Positions 20,307 through 45,315 of a stretch of DNA of 64,000 nucleotides are shown piece after piece. A program made the position numbers and the translations under genes. The stretch lies in assembly GCF_019203965.1 (NCBI RefSeq), contig NZ_CP076448.1, forward strand, positions 2,743,001 to 2,807,000, given 5' to 3'. Under the pieces are notes generated by a model that saw nothing but the letters and a program-made list of their open reading frames with translations, did not search any database and was not told where the DNA came from. This DNA comes from Elioraea tepida. Lineage in GTDB: Bacteria > Pseudomonadota > Alphaproteobacteria > Acetobacterales > Acetobacteraceae. Each line of letters starts with the position of its first letter. Within the stretch, counting starts at the first letter, position 1.

Positions 20307-20816
20307 ATGATGGGCGCAAGCGCCGGAGCACGCCCGGAGCCACGGCAAGAGCAGGCGATCGAGGCGCGGGCGACCGCGCCGGCCGGCTACGTGCTCGAGC
20401 GCCAGGTCGGGCACCTGTTGCGCCGCGCCCACCAGCGGCACGCGGCGCTGTTCCAGGCGATGCTCGCCGACGCACACGGGGCTGAGGCGGCGCTCACGCC
20501 GACGCAGTGGGCCGCGCTCGTCACCCTCGCGAAGCTCGGGGAGGCGACGCAGAATGCGCTCGGCCGCCTCGTCGCGATGGACCCCGCCACCACTCAAGGC
20601 GTGGTCCGCCGCCTCGTCGCGCGCGGCCTCGTCGCCCGGCACGCCGACGCCACGGACCGGCGCGTGATCCGCCTCTCCGTCACCGAAGCGGGGCGCGCCA
20701 CTGTCTCCGCCGTGCTGCCGACAGCCGTCGCGATCAGCGAGGCGACGCTCGAGCCTCTCTCCGCCGAAGAGCGGCGCATCTTCCTCACCCTCCTGGAACG
20801 GATGGCCTTCCCATGA
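20307..20816 (+). CDS. MarR-family transcriptional regulator
   Basis: A 169-residue winged-helix protein. It has the MarR order: a dimerisation helix (YVLERQVGHLLRRAHQRHAALFQ), LTPTQWAALVTLAKLGEATQNALGRLVAMDPATTQGVVRRLVARGLVARH as the DNA-binding helix-turn-helix, then the wing DATDRRVIRLSVTEAG. MarR repressors typically release DNA on binding an aromatic acid. The ribosome-binding GGAGG at 20301 sits better for the second ATG (20310) than the first (20307). It overlaps ferredoxin-NADP reductase (ATGA) and precedes the enamidase, so it is the prime candidate regulator of the nicotinate-like pathway. Confidence 0.88.
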   Translation: MMGASAGARPEPRQEQAIEARATAPAGYVLERQVGHLLRRAHQRHAALFQAMLADAHGAEAALTPTQWAALVTLAKLGEATQNALGRLVAMDPATTQGVVRRLVARGLVARHADATDRRVIRLSVTEAGRATVSAVLPTAVAISEATLEPLSAEERRIFLTLLERMAFP

Positions 20817-36271: not shown

Positions 36272-36721
36272 TCAGGGTGAGGTCGCGTCCGTCCCCAAGC
36301 GATCGAGCGCAGGGTCGAGCAAGCGCTCGGCGCTGTCGTTCCAGACATCGACGCGCCTGATCAGCCCGTCGGGGCCGACGACCATCCGGTCGATGAAGCG
36401 GTTGCCGTCGAAGCGCCGCCCGTCCGGCCAAGCCCCATGCAGCACGCCGAGGCAGTAGACGACAACGCCGCCCGTCTCCGGGTCCGGCGCGACGTCCCAG
36501 CGCTCGATGCGCTTGGCGACCTCGGCGTAGCGCGTGGCGTTGAAGCGCCCGATCTCTTGTGGTGCGGCGAAGCGCCTGCCGCCGGTGAACACGATCTCCG
36601 CTCCCGGCGCGAGGAAGGCGCTCGCTTCCGGGTCCTTCGCCATCGACAACAGAACGAAGCGCTGCACGCGCTCGAGCAGGCGCGCGTGGTCGAGGGTGTG
36701 GGGCGTGGCATCCATGCTCAT
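36272..36721 (-). CDS. SnoaL-like / nuclear transport factor 2-fold protein
   Basis: A 149-residue protein with the SnoaL/NTF2-like pattern: an N-terminal helix (ARLLERVQRFVLLSMAKDPEAS), FLAPGAEIVFTGGRRFAAPQEIGRF, and a beta-rich half ending GRRFDGNRFIDRMVVGPDGLIRRVDVWNDSAERLL. The family includes small cyclases, isomerases and steroid-isomerase-like enzymes, but many members are uncharacterised. The ATG overlaps the acetate kinase stop by four bases. No active-site assignment is possible. Confidence 0.75.
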   Translation of the reverse strand: MSMDATPHTLDHARLLERVQRFVLLSMAKDPEASAFLAPGAEIVFTGGRRFAAPQEIGRFNATRYAEVAKRIERWDVAPDPETGGVVVYCLGVLHGAWPDGRRFDGNRFIDRMVVGPDGLIRRVDVWNDSAERLLDPALDRLGTDATSP

Positions 36722-37908
36722 CCTCCTCCGGTCGGGTCGACGAGAGCAAGCGCGTGGAGCGCGATCATTCTCTCCTCGTCGGTCGGGATCCGCAGCACGG
36801 TCACCCGCGAGCGGGGAGCGGAGAGAACCGTCTCCCCGGCGGCATTTCGTGCCGGATCAAGAACAATTCCGAGCCACTCCATTCCCTCGCACACCGCGGC
36901 GCGGACCCGGGCCGAGTTCTCGCCGATTCCTGCGGTGAAGACGAGCCCGTCGAGCCCTCCGAGCGCGGCGGCAAGCGCGCCGAGCTCCTTGCGGATGCGG
37001 TAGACGAAGTAGTCGATCGCCTGAGCCGCCGCCTCCGAGCCGGAGGCCTCGAGCGCGCGCATGTCGTTTGAGAGGCCAGAGAGGCCCTTGAGCCCGCTCT
37101 CGGTGTAGATCAGGCGCGTGAGCGCGTCCGCGTCCATGCCGCGCTCGGTCATCAGGTGGATCAGCACGCCCGGGTCGAGCTGGCCGCAGCGTGTTCCCAT
37201 CGGCAGCCCGTCGACCGCCGTGAATCCCATGGTGCTGTCGATCGACCGCCCGCTTTTCAGCGCGCACATCGAGGCGCCGTTGCCGAGATGCGCAACCACG
37301 ACCCGGCCGGCGGCGAGCGAGGGCCACGTCTCGGCAAGCCGCCGTGCGACATACTCGTAGGAGAGGCCGTGGAAGCCGTAGCGCCGGATCCCCTGGTCAT
37401 AGAAGGCCCGCGGCAGCGCGAAGGTGTCGGCGACGAAGGGGTGGCCACGGTGAAAGGCGGTATCGAAGCAGGCGACCTGCGACACGAAGGGATAGAGCGC
37501 GGCCATCGCGTCGATCCCGGCGAGATTGTGCGGCTGGTGCAACGGCGCGAGCGGCACGAGCTTCTCGAGCGCGGCACGCACCGCGGAATCGACGATCAAG
37601 GGAGCGGCATAACCAGGCCCGCCATGGACGACGCGATGCCCGACCACGACCACCTTCCGGCCCGCGAGGAACGCCTCGAGCCAAGCGGTGGCCTCGGCGA
37701 GTGCGGTGCGATGATCGACAGGCTTGTCGCCCTTCAACGCGCGGTCGACGAGCACCGTGCCGCATGCGGCGTTCGCCCGAAACACGGGGCGGGAGCCGAT
37801 TCCCTCGATCAGAAGCTCTGCCAGCGAAACGAGCTCGCGCCCCGCCTCAAACACCTCGAGCTTGATCGAGGAGGAGCCGGCATTGACGACGAGCGCAACG
37901 GGGCTCAT
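36718..37908 (-). CDS. ackA: Acetate kinase
   Basis: A 396-residue acetokinase. It has NAGSSSIKLEVF at the start, GHRVVHGGPGY, the FDTAFHRGHP catalytic loop, GRVVVAHLGNGASMCALKSGRS nucleotide region, GLPMGTRCGQLDPG and VFTAGIGENSARVR. It interconverts acetate plus ATP and acetyl phosphate, and members may also use propionate. The ATG overlaps the upstream MaoC-phosphotransacetylase stop (ATGA), giving a full acyl-CoA to acyl-phosphate to acid module. It is oriented away from the nicotinate-type operon. Confidence 0.95.
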   Translation of the reverse strand: MSPVALVVNAGSSSIKLEVFEAGRELVSLAELLIEGIGSRPVFRANAACGTVLVDRALKGDKPVDHRTALAEATAWLEAFLAGRKVVVVGHRVVHGGPGYAAPLIVDSAVRAALEKLVPLAPLHQPHNLAGIDAMAALYPFVSQVACFDTAFHRGHPFVADTFALPRAFYDQGIRRYGFHGLSYEYVARRLAETWPSLAAGRVVVAHLGNGASMCALKSGRSIDSTMGFTAVDGLPMGTRCGQLDPGVLIHLMTERGMDADALTRLIYTESGLKGLSGLSNDMRALEASGSEAAAQAIDYFVYRIRKELGALAAALGGLDGLVFTAGIGENSARVRAAVCEGMEWLGIVLDPARNAAGETVLSAPRSRVTVLRIPTDEERMIALHALALVDPTGGG

Positions 37909-39329
37909 GCGCTGGGTGCGTCATCGAGCGGCGGAACCGCACTCTGCCCGGTCGCCTTCCAATGGTTGAACAGCACGGCGAGCGCGGCTGAGGCGAGGCG
38001 GGCGCGGGCGTCGTCGGCGCGGCTCGTCAGCATCACCGGCACGGCGGCGCCGACCACGAGACCGGCACTGTCGGCATGCGCGACGAAGGTGAGGTTCTTC
38101 GCGAGCATGTTGCCCGCCTCGAGATTCGGCACAACGAGCACCTCCGCCCTGCCGGCCACCGCCGAGACGATGCCCTTGGTGCGGGCAGCGTCGATGTCGA
38201 TCGCGTTGTCCATCGCGAGCGGGCCGTCCACAAGGCCGCCGGTGATCTGGCCGCGCTCGGCCATCTTGGAGAGGATCGCCGCATCGAGGCTCGAGGGGAT
38301 GGCTGGGTTGACGGTCTCGACCGCGCTCATCACCGCGACCTTGGGCCTTGCGATGCCGATCGCGCGCGCGAGGTCGATCGCATTCTGCACGATGTCGGCC
38401 TTGGTCATCAGGTCGGGCGCGATGTTGATCGCCGCGTCGGTGACGAGGAGGAGGTGCGGCAGGCCCGGGGCGTCGAGCACGAAAACGTGGCTGATCCGCC
38501 GCTTGGCGCGCAGTCCGCCCTCGCGCTTGACGATCTCGGCCAAGAGCTCGTCCGAGTGCAGTGCCCCCTTCATCACCGCCCGGGCGCGATCCTCGTGCAC
38601 GAGCGCGACCGCGCGTGCCGCGGCGGCATGGCTGTGCGGCGCGTCGACGAGCTCGAAGCCCGAGATGTCGATGCCTGAAGCGGCAGCGGCAGTACGGATC
38701 TTCGCCTCCGGACCGACGAGGACCGGAACGATCAGCCCGGCCCGTGCCGCCTCCGCGACACCTTCGAGGCTCGGCGCGTCGCAGGGATGGGCGACCGCTG
38801 TCGGCAGCGGCGGCAGCCCAGAGCAGGCGGCGATCAGACGGTCGAATTTCGCATGCTGGCGGAACACGAGCTCGGGCAGGGCGACATTCTCGAGCGTCGC
38901 CCGCGCGGTCGGCGCGAGCACCTCGCACACGGCCGTGGCGAGGACCTCGCCGCGCTGATTCGTGACCATGCCGTCGAACACGACGATGTTCGGCGGCCGC
39001 TTCTCACGCGCGCTGACGGTGGCGGTGAGCGTGTCGCCGACATGGGCGTGGCCGAGAAACTCGATCGACTGCGACTTGTAGAGCGTGCCCGGCCCGGGAA
39101 GCCTAGTGCCGAGCACGGCCGAGAGCAGGGCCGCGACCCACATGCTCGGTGCGACCGCGCGCTCGCTGTCGCCCTCCCCCTGCCTGCCTTCCAGATGGAG
39201 CGGGTTGAGGTTGCCCGAGGCATGCGCGAACACGACGAGATCGTTTGGCGTCAGCGTGCGCACGATCCGGGCGCTCTCGCCGGGGGTGATCTCGTCGAAG
39301 GTGCGGTTGGTCGCGGCCACCTGGTTCAC
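37905..39329 (-). CDS. Bifunctional MaoC hydratase / phosphate acetyl- or butyryltransferase
   Basis: A 474-residue fusion. Residues about 10-150 form a MaoC/hot-dog hydratase domain (LTPNDLVVFAHASGNLNPLHL, with the expected hydratase Asn/Asp-His pattern). From about 165 comes the phosphotransacetylase/phosphotransbutyrylase domain (AVLVGPEAKIR-like VPVLVGPEAKIR, VMKGALHSDELLAEI, VTDAAINIAPDL, ITGGLVDGPLAMDNAI). It could hydrate an enoyl-CoA and convert an acyl-CoA to its phosphate for acetate kinase downstream, which overlaps it by four bases. Substrate chain length is unknown. Confidence 0.88.
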   Translation of the reverse strand: MNQVAATNRTFDEITPGESARIVRTLTPNDLVVFAHASGNLNPLHLEGRQGEGDSERAVAPSMWVAALLSAVLGTRLPGPGTLYKSQSIEFLGHAHVGDTLTATVSAREKRPPNIVVFDGMVTNQRGEVLATAVCEVLAPTARATLENVALPELVFRQHAKFDRLIAACSGLPPLPTAVAHPCDAPSLEGVAEAARAGLIVPVLVGPEAKIRTAAAASGIDISGFELVDAPHSHAAAARAVALVHEDRARAVMKGALHSDELLAEIVKREGGLRAKRRISHVFVLDAPGLPHLLLVTDAAINIAPDLMTKADIVQNAIDLARAIGIARPKVAVMSAVETVNPAIPSSLDAAILSKMAERGQITGGLVDGPLAMDNAIDIDAARTKGIVSAVAGRAEVLVVPNLEAGNMLAKNLTFVAHADSAGLVVGAAVPVMLTSRADDARARLASAALAVLFNHWKATGQSAVPPLDDAPSA

Positions 39330-41310: not shown

Positions 41311-42105
41311 TCAGGCGGCGGCGGCGGCCTGCGCGGCGGCATTGGGGCACTCGCCCCTGCGGCGCTTCCGCGTCTCGGTGGCATAGCGGCCGCGGCCTCG
41401 GTCGGCGGCCGAGCAGGGCTCGACGACCGTGGCGCGGTAGTCGGCCCAGTCCTGTTCCGTCATCGCGTCGATGTCGGTAACGACCCGGCCCGTGTTCTGC
41501 AGCGCCTCGTCGTACATCATCCGCGGTACCGGCACGGCGGTGGCGAAGGGGAAGTCGGGGTCGAGACGGACGGGAACGTCGGTCTTGGTCAGGCGGAGAT
41601 TGGTGAAGAGCGGGCCGAACCAGCGATCGGTCTCGACGATGCCTTCATAGACCTCGTAGCCGGCCGCGCGGGGGAGATTGGCGGGCGGGCGGATCAGCAG
41701 GCTCCAGCCAGGGGCGGTGCGGGCGATCAGGCCTGACCAGATCTGCACCACGCCGGGCTCCTTGAGCGCGGCGACGAAGGGGGGAGAGAAGCCGCGCACC
41801 GGCTCCGGCGCGGCGGCGTCGAACTGTTCGGCGAAACCCGGGAACTGCGCCACGCCAAGGGGCAGAAGGCCGTGCTCCTCGCCGCCGTCCCAGGTCCAGA
41901 ACACCTGGGTGCCATCCCAGACGAACGTCACGCCGACAGGGGGAAACAGATACCAGCCGAGCCCCGTCGCTGTCGTCACCGCCTCGCAGTAGCGGAAGGC
42001 GCGGGTGGGAAGCGTGCCTGCTCCCGACCGGTCGGCACGCTGGGGCGGGCGTGCGGAGGGAACAAGGCGATTGAAGGTCACCAGGGGCACGGGCTGCTTC
42101 GTCAT
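41311..42105 (-). CDS. DUF6065 family protein
   Basis: 264 residues from the ATG at 42105; an upstream in-frame extension is basic and unlikely. The sequence FNRLVPSARPPQRADRSGAG, TRAFRYCEAV, GWYLFPPVGVTFVWDG (GWYLFPP at 50-56), WSGLIARTAPGWSLLIR and ETDRWFGPLFTNLRL matches what I know as DUF6065, a family without an established function. The C-terminus is a low-complexity Ala-rich tail after a Cys-containing basic segment (ETRKRRRGECPN). It lies about 230 bases downstream of, and on the same strand as, a 45-residue repeat peptide gene. A modifying enzyme, chaperone or immunity factor for that peptide is a hypothesis. Confidence 0.75.
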   Translation of the reverse strand: MTKQPVPLVTFNRLVPSARPPQRADRSGAGTLPTRAFRYCEAVTTATGLGWYLFPPVGVTFVWDGTQVFWTWDGGEEHGLLPLGVAQFPGFAEQFDAAAPEPVRGFSPPFVAALKEPGVVQIWSGLIARTAPGWSLLIRPPANLPRAAGYEVYEGIVETDRWFGPLFTNLRLTKTDVPVRLDPDFPFATAVPVPRMMYDEALQNTGRVVTDIDAMTEQDWADYRATVVEPCSAADRGRGRYATETRKRRRGECPNAAAQAAAAA

Positions 42106-42112
42106 GGGACCG

Positions 42113-42325
42113 TCATCCTCTCTTCCTCTGGCGGCTTCCCGGCGCTTCCTCTTGTTTGCCGGGGCCTGGGCGCCCGTTGCCGGGTCTTGGTCGTGGTGTG
42201 GCACGTCGGTGCGGGAGCGCGAGGCCCGGGGGCTCGGGAGGGGAGGGAGAGGGACGGCCCTTCGCCGCTCGGGCCTCGCGCATCAGGCGATGACGCAGCG
42301 CGTCCGACTGCGCCGCTGCGGCCAT
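42113..42325 (-). CDS. Possible small basic protein between the repeat peptide and the DUF6065 gene
   Basis: An open frame of 70 codons from the ATG at 42325, nine bases after the peptide stop and ending eight bases before the DUF6065 start. It begins MAAAAQSDALRHRLMREARAAKG, which could be a helix, and then becomes Pro/Arg-rich low-complexity sequence. Spacing fits an operon, but composition could equally be a chance frame in GC-rich DNA. No ribosome-binding site stands out. Low confidence. Confidence 0.25.
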   Translation of the reverse strand: MAAAAQSDALRHRLMREARAAKGRPSPSPPEPPGLALPHRRATPRPRPGNGRPGPGKQEEAPGSRQRKRG

Positions 42326-42333
42326 CGGGGTGA

Positions 42334-42471
42334 TCAGACGATCGGGGCGATGCCGCCGAGGCGCACCTTGCCGTTGTCGGCGATCGTGCGCGGCAGCGGG
42401 GTGATGATGCCGCCGAGACGGACCTTGGCGGTGTCGGCCACGAGGGCGGGGAGGCGGATTCGCTTGGTCAT
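42334..42471 (-). CDS. 45-residue repeat peptide, candidate ribosomally made natural-product precursor
   Basis: A short gene with a good ribosome-binding site (GAGAAGGAACAGACC before ATG). After MTKRIR it consists of two tandem units: LPALVADTAKVRLGGI followed by ITP, and LPRTIADNGKVRLGGI followed by APIV. The units share LPxxxADxxKVRLGGI, that is 11 identical positions of 16, with third-base differences that show selection on protein (for example GTCCGTCTC against GTGCGCCTC). The size, duplicated core and double-glycine motifs resemble multicore precursor peptides (RiPPs), but no modifying enzyme of known type is beside it. It could instead be a small structural or binding peptide. Confidence 0.6.
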   Translation of the reverse strand: MTKRIRLPALVADTAKVRLGGIITPLPRTIADNGKVRLGGIAPIV

Positions 42472-42524
42472 GGTCTGTTCCTTCTCTTGCCTGTCGGGAC
42501 GAGCAGATCCCGCCGACGCGACGG

Positions 42525-42554
42525 ACGATATGCCCAGATCGAAGGAGAGTGCAA
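42525..42554 (-). promoter_or_regulatory. Candidate promoter of the repeat-peptide gene
   Basis: On the minus strand TTGCAC (42549-42554) and TATCGT (42525-42530) are separated by 18 bases, followed by a leader of about 50 bases to the peptide ATG. The surrounding 42540-42620 stretch is unusually AT-rich for this genome (including GGATTTTTCTC on the minus strand), which supports promoter activity here. Confidence 0.4.
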
Positions 42555-42733
42555 GAGAAAAATCCTATTTCGGCGCTTTTTCCTTTCGTGAAGGTATGCC
42601 GTCCTTGCAACCATCGGTATATGCGCGATCTCACGGCCCTTGACGGCGATCTCACGCGTGCGCGCAGCGCGTCCACGCTACCTAGAGCGCGGACGAGGCG
42701 GACATCCGGGCCCCTCGCCAACAAGGACATGCG

Positions 42734-43042
42734 ATGACGAAGGACGAGCCACAGGACCTCCCGCCGGTCGCCGGCGATCCGATCCTCCTGCACGTGCTTG
42801 CCGCCGCCCAGCGCTTCGCGGCTTGGTATGCCGAGTATCTCTCGGTTGGGGCCGCTCCCGCCGGATACAGTGGACCGGCCGCGGAACAGCGCGTCGATGA
42901 GGTCGTCCGCCACTTGCAGCATGCGGTGTTCGACCTGATGGCGGCCGTGCACGCGATGAACCGCCATTGCTCGGGCCAAGCGGCGGCCTCTGAGGCGCCG
43001 AAGCGGCGGTCGCTCGCGGTGGCGCGGACGGCCGTCCACTGA
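42734..43042 (+). CDS. 102-residue protein of unknown function, divergent from the repeat peptide
   Basis: The ATG has an AAGGA ribosome-binding site six bases upstream. The protein begins MTKDEPQDLPPVAGDPILLHVLAAAQRFAAWYAEYLSVG, then AAEQRVDEVVRHLQHAVFDLMAAVHAMNRHCSG, predicted mostly helical with two His-containing helices; the C-terminal 20 residues are basic. No domain recognised. It is divergent from the peptide/DUF6065 genes across a 262-base promoter region, so shared regulation is plausible. Confidence 0.55.
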   Translation: MTKDEPQDLPPVAGDPILLHVLAAAQRFAAWYAEYLSVGAAPAGYSGPAAEQRVDEVVRHLQHAVFDLMAAVHAMNRHCSGQAAASEAPKRRSLAVARTAVH

Positions 43043-43290: not shown

Positions 43291-45315
43291 ATGCCTGACG
43301 GTCTGGCCGATCCCGCGCTCCCGCCGGCCCAGTCGGATCAGATCACGCTCCGCCTCCGCCTGATCGGCACGATGGATGCGTGGGGGCTTGCGAGCGAGCG
43401 CGTGCTGCCGCGCGTGCGTAAGACACGCGGCATTCTCGCCGTGCTTGCCCTCTCCGCCGGGCGGCCGGTTCCGCGCGCGCGTCTCACTGGCCTGTTCTGG
43501 AGCAGGCGTGACCGGGAACAGGCCCGCGCCTCGCTCAGGCAGTCGCTGCATGAGCTCGGACATGCGCTCGCTCCCTGCGGCGGGATTCTTGTCACGACCC
43601 GCGAGACGGCCCAGCTCCTGCCCGAGCGGCTCTGGGTGGACGCGACCGAGGTGCTTCGTCTCGGCGCGACCGAGCCGGCCGCACTCGACGTGATCGAGGG
43701 GACGCTGCTCGCCGACCTCGACGGGCTCGATCCGGCCTTCGACCAGTGGCTCGCTGAGGAGAGGCGGCGTTTCCGCGCCCGCGCCAGAACCCAGGCGGAG
43801 GCCCATTACAGCGCCCACGACCCGGCCGAGGTGCGGGTCGTCGCCGCCCGGCGGATCGTGCAGATCGATCCGACCTACGAGCCTGGGTGGCTTGCGCTGA
43901 TCCAGGCGCTCGGCGATCTCGGCGACCGCTCCGCAGCGCTTGCCGCCTACGACCAGGCGCGCGCCGAACTCGCTCGCGTCGGCGCCGAGCCGGCGGCCGA
44001 GCTCGAGGCCACCGCGCAGCGGCTTCGGCTGGAACTCCGCGCCGCCGGCCAGCCGCGAACGGAGGTCTCCACAAGCCATCCGCCGCCGCAGCGGGCGACG
44101 GTGCGCGGCGCGCGAATCGGCGTCGCGCCCCTGAAGCTCCTCGGCACGGGCGCGGGCGAGCATCTCTCCATCGCTCTCGCCGACGAGATCACCACCGCTC
44201 TGTCGCGCCTGCGCTGGCTCTCGGTCGTCTCCTCGGCCACGCTCGCGCGTCTTCACGACCCGACCGACACCGTCGCCGCGCGGCGCGATCTCGGCCTCGA
44301 CTTCCTGCTGGCAGGGAGCGTGCAGGCGGCCACCTCGCCAGAGACGGGCGCGCCGCAGGTGCGCGTGTCGCTGTCGCTGCTTGATCTCCGCGCGGAGGCG
44401 CAGGTCGTCTGGGCGCAGCGGTTCGACCGCGACGCCTCCGACATCTTCGCGCTTCAGGACGCGGTGGCCTCCGAGGTGGTCGCCCGAATCGATCCCGAGA
44501 TCCTGCTGATCGAGGCGCGCCGGGCCGAGAGCAGGGTGCCCGCGCCGGCCTCCGCCTATGAGCTCCTGCTCAAGGCGATCCCGGCGATCTACCGCCTCGA
44601 CCGAGTGCCCTTCATGGAGGCGGGCGTCCTGCTCGCCGCCGCGATCGCGCGCGAGCCGGACTATGCCGCGCCGCACGCCTGGTATGCCTACTGGCACATT
44701 TTCCTCGTCGGCCAGGGCTGGGCCGAGAATGCCGAGGAGGCGATGCGGACGGCGGGCGATCTCGCCACCCGCGCCATCGCGCTCGACCCGGCGGACGCGC
44801 GCGGCCTCACCATCGCGGGGCATGTGCAGGCCTACCTCCATCGCCGCCACGACCAGGCGATCGCGTTGCACGACCGTGCCCTCAGCATCAACCCGAACCT
44901 GCCGATGGCCTGGGTGTTCTCCGGTGCTGCCCACGGCTATGCCGGCCGCCATGCCGAGGCGATCCGACGGATCGAACGCTACCGCCGCCTCTCGCCGATG
45001 GACCCGCACGCCTTCCTGTTCGAGACGGGGCTGATGACGCCGCACATCCTGCAGGGCGACTACGCCGAAGCGGTGCGGATCGGCGAGGCGGTGACGGCGA
45101 TGCAGCCCAATCTGACCGCCGCCTGGAAGCCCTATGCCATCGCGCTCGCACTGATGGGCCGCGACCAGGAGGCACGCGAGGCGGCGCGTCGTCTGCTCGC
45201 GCTCGAGCCAGGGTTCACGATCTCGGGCTTCCTCGCCACCACACCCTATGTGCGCCCGGAGGACCTCGCCACCCTCGCCGCCGGGCTGGAACGCGCAGGT
45301 CTGCCCAGCGGCTGA
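43291..45315 (+). CDS. BTAD-domain transcriptional regulator with TolB-like and TPR regions
   Basis: A 674-residue protein. The N-terminal winged-helix region (ITLRLRLIGTMDAWGL to about 110, with LPRVRKTRGILAVLALSAGRPVPRARLTGLFW) and a BTAD helical-repeat domain (about 115-260) match SARP-like regulators. Residues 275-400 contain a TolB-like/adenylate-cyclase-linked segment (RIGVAPLKLLGTGAGEHLSIALADEITTALSRL ... FLLAGSVQ). The rest is TPR-like helical repeat (HDQAIALHDRALSINPNLPMAWVFSGAAHGYAGRHAEAI). It probably activates transcription in response to protein or ligand binding on the TPRs. Its target is unknown; the adjacent 102-residue and peptide genes are candidates. Confidence 0.85.
   Translation: MPDGLADPALPPAQSDQITLRLRLIGTMDAWGLASERVLPRVRKTRGILAVLALSAGRPVPRARLTGLFWSRRDREQARASLRQSLHELGHALAPCGGILVTTRETAQLLPERLWVDATEVLRLGATEPAALDVIEGTLLADLDGLDPAFDQWLAEERRRFRARARTQAEAHYSAHDPAEVRVVAARRIVQIDPTYEPGWLALIQALGDLGDRSAALAAYDQARAELARVGAEPAAELEATAQRLRLELRAAGQPRTEVSTSHPPPQRATVRGARIGVAPLKLLGTGAGEHLSIALADEITTALSRLRWLSVVSSATLARLHDPTDTVAARRDLGLDFLLAGSVQAATSPETGAPQVRVSLSLLDLRAEAQVVWAQRFDRDASDIFALQDAVASEVVARIDPEILLIEARRAESRVPAPASAYELLLKAIPAIYRLDRVPFMEAGVLLAAAIAREPDYAAPHAWYAYWHIFLVGQGWAENAEEAMRTAGDLATRAIALDPADARGLTIAGHVQAYLHRRHDQAIALHDRALSINPNLPMAWVFSGAAHGYAGRHAEAIRRIERYRRLSPMDPHAFLFETGLMTPHILQGDYAEAVRIGEAVTAMQPNLTAAWKPYAIALALMGRDQEAREAARRLLALEPGFTISGFLATTPYVRPEDLATLAAGLERAGLPSG

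Follow-up and report, generated by a model that had tools for sequence, protein, structure and literature searches.

A short gene in the window, i.e. the whole stretch of 64,000 nucleotides that was analysed, encodes a tandem-unit peptide from an apparently so far undescribed family, the members of which contain one short unit in 1 to 19 or more copies. Within this family the peptide is under selection at the amino-acid level and the arrays vary in length, the peptide is the partner of one particular subfamily of DUF6065 proteins, from whose gene it can be separated, and the loci are linked to a transcriptional regulator of the BTAD/TPR type. We lean, to a modest degree, towards the reading that the peptide is a multi-unit substrate or ligand for which the DUF6065 protein is the dedicated partner, acting in trans. 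A literature search, whose scope may not have extended to subscription papers, retrieved no paper that names DUF6065 or KVRLGG. The features of the locus are collected in Table 1.

Table 1. Features of the peptide-DUF6065 locus, in window positions
Feature	Position	Strand	Basis and remarks
DUF6065-family protein, 264 aa, predicted dUTPase-like fold	41311..42105	-	Pfam PF19541; AlphaFold, Foldseek; hhalign
45-aa tandem-unit peptide gene	42334..42471	-	frame, relatives' matches, codon comparison; conserved family
Unit 2 LPRTIADNGKVRLGGI	42349..42396	-	sequence
Unit 1 LPALVADTAKVRLGGI	42406..42453	-	sequence
Ribosome-binding site AAGGAA	42478..42483	-	sequence
Predicted promoter: ATAGGATTTTT box, TTGCAC (-35), CATATC (-10)	42527..42568	-	comparison with relatives, by-eye alignment
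Direct repeat GCGATCTCACG x2, 21 bp apart, CGTGA half-sites; possible regulator operator	42625..42656		Elioraea only
102-aa conserved protein	42734..43042	+	Elioraea-type loci only; cluster c15, 8 loci
BTAD/TPR transcriptional regulator, divergent	43291..45315	+	BTAD and TPR domain matches; homologues beside many loci

The peptide gene and its family

The genome that holds the window is a single 3.37-Mb contig, and its closest named relatives are Elioraea. The product of the peptide gene is MTKRIRLPALVADTAKVRLGGIITPLPRTIADNGKVRLGGIAPIV and, as had been noted in a sequence-only reading of this DNA, it contains two units that both fit LPxxxADxxKVRLGGI, in which four shared residues are specified by different codons (CTC/CTG, CCC/CCG, GTC/GTG and CGT/CGC). 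The strong ribosome-binding site and the AT-rich promoter described in the same reading were recovered as well: the last base of AAGGAA lies 6 nt ahead of the ATG, and the region 42520-42600 has an AT content of 52%, versus 30% for the window. An AGGA box plus a TTGCAC/CATATC-type promoter is also found in the upstream regions of relatives, and the pattern AGGA-N5-8-TTG[AC] is present in 18 of 56 peptide upstreams, where shuffled sequences give 1.67; a generic scan for sigma-70 promoter and terminator patterns gave no match at the window locus. The CGTGA direct repeat with its 21-bp spacing was found at 4 of 56 loci, exclusively in Elioraea (0.15 expected). Its layout is like that of SARP operators, and the BTAD/TPR regulator may bind there.

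Neither Pfam nor NCBIfam holds a model that matches the window peptide, and a search of both with six peptides gave no convincing family match above cut-off (DUF3299 reached 27 bits, with a cut-off of 22, on one repeat array, where it covered 29 residues and no single stretch passed alone). Counterparts with 73-80% identity (E 1e-14 to 1e-17) are present in both other genomes of this genus, and in the other genera among 60 relatives the counterparts are longer arrays. Two orthologous copies, in genomes G001 and G002, differ over 36 codons by 7 synonymous and 0 nonsynonymous changes; the Elioraea relatives of the window peptide are under purifying selection.

For a broader comparison, the best 80 of 271 relatives of the DUF6065 subfamily (mainly from Acetobacteraceae and Elioraea) were retained from a scan of GTDB genomes, and 19 further loci of the subfamily were taken from viral contigs. 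Upstream of these DUF6065 genes a core recurs (e.g. DAGKVRLGGMSPSL, DASKVRLGGYAPTL, DAGKVRIGGNAPSL, DAGRVRLGAGMRRG and DTGRIRLGAGWRLP) with the consensus D-[AST]-G-[KR]-V-R-L-G-[GA]-x-[AP/R...] or, in a broader form, D-x-G-[KR]-[VI]-R-[LIF]-G-[GA]-x-.... Upstream regions were scored for the 14-residue core by means of a left-out position matrix, with their reverse strands and shuffled versions of them as controls, and 97 of the 108 (a number that includes a few places fetched twice) exceed the 99th percentile of the controls. The sequence-only reading had proposed such a search for the repeat peptide next to DUF6065, and the frame is indeed conserved in the relatives that keep DUF6065. Among the 11 regions below the threshold, two contain what look like genuine divergent single units (DSGLIRLGAAVGGP and DQGRVHVGGAFIRF) and four belong to Elioraea genomes that have the peptide elsewhere. 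Across the scored regions the unit is strongly conserved and the linkers are variable; a conserved leader was not found in the peptides, the N-terminus being merely short and variable.

The peptides differ in their number of units, a variation that had also been proposed for examination, and hold between 1 and at least 19 of them. The shortest members are 30 aa (e.g. MTPSTLPATSDTGRIRLGAGWRLPSTKPSR), and a single unit was tallied at 29 loci, some of these counts being lower bounds since short-read assemblies break in the array (contigs stop within it at L116, L122, L126, L133, L156 and others). Within 37 arrays, units differ from each other by on average 123.6 synonymous versus 50.9 nonsynonymous codon differences. 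The synonymous share of 71%, versus 28% for random single-base changes, implies that selection acts on the peptide and not on DNA repeats, and a repeat element at the DNA level is thereby ruled out; arrays of 6, 8 and 17 units show zero amino-acid difference inside the core. Two marks of a multicore RiPP precursor are present in the family, namely that selection acts on the amino acids of the encoded peptide and that one precursor can hold several core copies (1 to 19 or more units). A GC-rich genome like that of the window does contain many spurious frames, but the probability that the peptide gene is one of them is practically nil: a chance frame is ruled out by the matches in relatives, the 97 of 108 loci, the synonymous bias and the G001/G002 orthologues.

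Partnership with a DUF6065 subfamily

The gene downstream of the peptide on the same strand encodes, as had been claimed, a DUF6065 protein (PF19541, E 4.6e-15, 56.2 bits with a curated cut-off of 26.6). The partnership of the peptide with this subfamily is solid. In most loci the peptide is located just upstream of DUF6065 (median gap 130 nt), and a class-wide sample of 385 genomes yielded four further carriers of the subfamily, from two other families. Each of these four alphaproteobacterial genomes has a tandem peptide directly upstream of DUF6065, e.g. ATKDTGKVRLGNMSPAF or about eleven copies of FGKSKVKLGMMAPA, with cores like VRLGNMSPAF and VKLGMMAPAF. A peptide with three units is paired with DUF6065 in a Sneathiella MAG, and on two Rhizobium plasmids an annotated hypothetical protein with three copies of DGKVHIANKSPAF precedes a DUF6065 gene whose product is 40% identical. 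In Rhizobium SRDI969 the latter is followed by an MFS transporter gene with a 4-nt overlap; such an exporter-like gene was found beside DUF6065 in the Rhizobium lineage only, and strain WSM4643 has two shorter frames at its place (L291:8843-9861). Nine canonical DUF6065 loci had neither the peptide (0/9) nor the regulator (0/9), and in a phylum-wide scan of 398 genomes the sole match was the window's own genome. When the peptide type (AP or R) is mapped onto the DUF6065 tree only 2 changes are needed, where shuffled labels give a mean of 22, as is expected when partners are inherited together.

Four Elioraea genomes keep both DUF6065 and the peptide at different sites, which implies that the pair can work in trans. 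In the three best-assembled of these the surroundings of the peptide match those in the window: it is divergent from the BTAD regulator and lies beside gyrA. The linkage of peptide and regulator is thus independent of DUF6065; the 102-aa protein of cluster c15, for which no Pfam match was obtained, remains with DUF6065. Orphan peptide copies that have no DUF6065 neighbour were seen at G001:C5:221672-221803 and at G002:C24:3141-3275 and 20350-20481 (L030, L064 and L065), and two of the orphan copies in these genomes stand before a conserved frame of 94-95 aa (VCxGRGGKH...).

That the peptide directly precedes DUF6065 in the majority of loci, at a median gap of 130 nt, would suit a cis-acting leader peptide or attenuator of that gene. 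We attach hardly any weight to this explanation, given the orphan copies, the long arrays and the conservation at the amino-acid level, and it is largely ruled out by the four Elioraea genomes in which the peptide is apart from DUF6065 together with the RNA of the gap, which has an ordinary fold (z -0.58).

The DUF6065 protein and the neighbouring genes

The DUF6065 protein is predicted to have a dUTPase fold with altered catalytic motifs. Its AlphaFold model (pLDDT 87) was compared with the PDB using Foldseek, and the top 50 matches were all dUTPases (target TM-score up to 0.75); an alignment by hhalign is colinear with dUTPase across motifs II-III, be it weak when taken alone (E 0.068). The catalytic Asp of dUTPases is replaced by Glu158, PRSG of motif II by PPAN, and motif V (the GGFGSTG tail) is absent, and therefore the protein is probably not a dUTPase. 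The conservation of R139, N143, E154, G155, W162, G164 and others as invariant residues nevertheless suggests a retained site. Searching by sequence gave nothing useful in the PDB, no defence match in PADLOC, no match in an annotated phage collection and in PHROGs nothing but one weak match to a family of unknown function. To our knowledge the dUTPase fold has no precedent among peptide-modifying enzymes.

In dUTPases motif V (RGxGGFGSTG) is a glycine-rich C-terminal arm, and the repeated unit could be imagined to be its detached stand-in, completing the nucleotide-binding site of DUF6065 in trans. The protein has the fold without motif V, cores like VRLGGFAPTL and RIRFGAGYRLP are similar to the motif, and positions in the C-terminal tail of DUF6065 vary with the peptide type. 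The likeness, however, is short and glycine-rich with the spacing of the Arg one residue off, and the changes to PPAN and Glu also speak against the idea. Moreover, in an AlphaFold model of a read-through chain (peptide, linker and DUF6065) the peptide is disordered (pLDDT about 30) and undocked, which is weak evidence because a single chain cannot form a trimer. We consider this explanation very improbable.

The sequence-only reading had presented a system of two components that extends from 42105 to 42733. Both components are confirmed, and within that interval lie the peptide with its promoter and the DNA that separates it from DUF6065; in fact the system reaches 41311 and probably 45315, and a third component, the BTAD/TPR regulator, had been missed. 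Of 38 fully flanked loci, 22 have the regulator on one side or the other of the pair; it was also seen at one out-of-family locus, and is missing near the remaining 16 as well as at the Sneathiella-like and Rhizobium loci. Its TPR part might sense the unit, as in the RRNPP pairs (Rap-Phr, PlcR-PapR), which likewise have a TPR regulator beside a small peptide gene, with DUF6065 as an accessory. Such peptide signalling would agree with the adjacency in the 22 loci and with the peptide and regulator remaining together where DUF6065 sits elsewhere. Unlike RRNPP pairs, however, the system combines a BTAD architecture, tandem units and an extra DUF6065 protein with peptides that have no secretion signal; the regulator is missing at the loci just named, and DUF6065 is the more constant partner. 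We therefore regard signalling as improbable.

Several other neighbours were observed. On IMG/VR contigs and in two MAGs (L175-L190, L192, L145 and L169) the genes that come after DUF6065 encode, in a conserved order, terminase, portal, scaffold and major head proteins, an arrangement that we read as a prophage or a domesticated head module that may have become fixed there. A receiver-like protein of 150-200 aa (cluster c3, 21 loci, including L145, L146 and L175-L192) is encoded convergently and directly downstream of DUF6065. In the window, at 36718-39329, acetate kinase adjoins a fused MaoC-phosphate acetyl/butyryl transferase.

Proposed working and relation to known systems

In the reading that we favour, the peptide acting as multi-unit substrate or ligand, the repeated unit would be the functional element of a short precursor-like peptide that is made from its own promoter. 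The DUF6065 protein, with its dUTPase fold minus the catalytic motifs, would recognise each unit and either modify it or hold it; dUTPases are trimeric, and DUF6065 therefore probably is as well. With extra units each transcript would yield more product or a higher valency, which would explain why arrays expand and contract with the unit fixed at the amino-acid level. The BTAD/TPR regulator would control the genes in many lineages, and the MFS transporter of Rhizobium would fit export of a product. Physical binding, modification, regulation and export are what we infer here.

The closest comparison is that with multicore RiPP precursors (of the microviridin/graspetide type, and dikaritin), with which the system shares a short gene with tandem, near-identical units in variable number, an adjoining conserved partner gene of unknown function, a pathway-type regulator and, in one lineage, an MFS gene. 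The layout is RiPP-like, and the system is a candidate member of the class. The multicore RiPP reading proposed from the sequence stands as far as the multi-unit gene, its varying repeat number and the link to DUF6065 are concerned. Against it speak that a conserved leader was not seen, that neither a known RiPP modifying enzyme (as already noted in that reading) nor a protease is found beside the window peptide, and that the fold of DUF6065 is unlike that of known RiPP enzymes; furthermore, the repeated unit itself is the most conserved part here, its modification is putative and DUF6065 is a candidate modifier only. With the dUTPase/dCTP deaminase superfamily DUF6065 has in common the predicted fold and the colinear motif II-III region, whereas Glu158, PPAN, the lack of motif V and the peptide partner set it apart. 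Canonical DUF6065 proteins (e.g. of Caulobacter) belong to the same Pfam family, but at the nine loci examined they lack the repeat peptide and the BTAD regulator.

Next after the multi-unit substrate reading ranks the explanation that the peptide stays unmodified, is intrinsically disordered and, as a multivalent ligand or a scaffold made up of short linear motifs, binds DUF6065 (or the regulator) and thereby gathers or regulates it. The very strong conservation of the unit between variable linkers, the predicted disorder, the variable valency and the lack of modification machinery beside the peptide would all fit, although the MFS gene in Rhizobium is then left unexplained; multivalency cannot be required, because many loci have a single unit. 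We consider it rather unlikely.

The peptide family escapes Pfam and NCBIfam and yet it is widespread in Acetobacteraceae and their kin and extends to Rhizobium plasmids. The constant peptide partner gives DUF6065 a function that is directly testable. Tentatively, a dUTPase-fold protein may have been repurposed to work on a short repeated peptide unit under a BTAD/TPR regulator, yielding a modified multi-copy product (i.e. a new RiPP class) or a nucleotide-binding complex completed by the peptide. If DUF6065 modifies the unit, this would be a RiPP class whose enzyme has a fold without precedent in that role, and if DUF6065 only binds the unit, it would be a new multivalent motif system.
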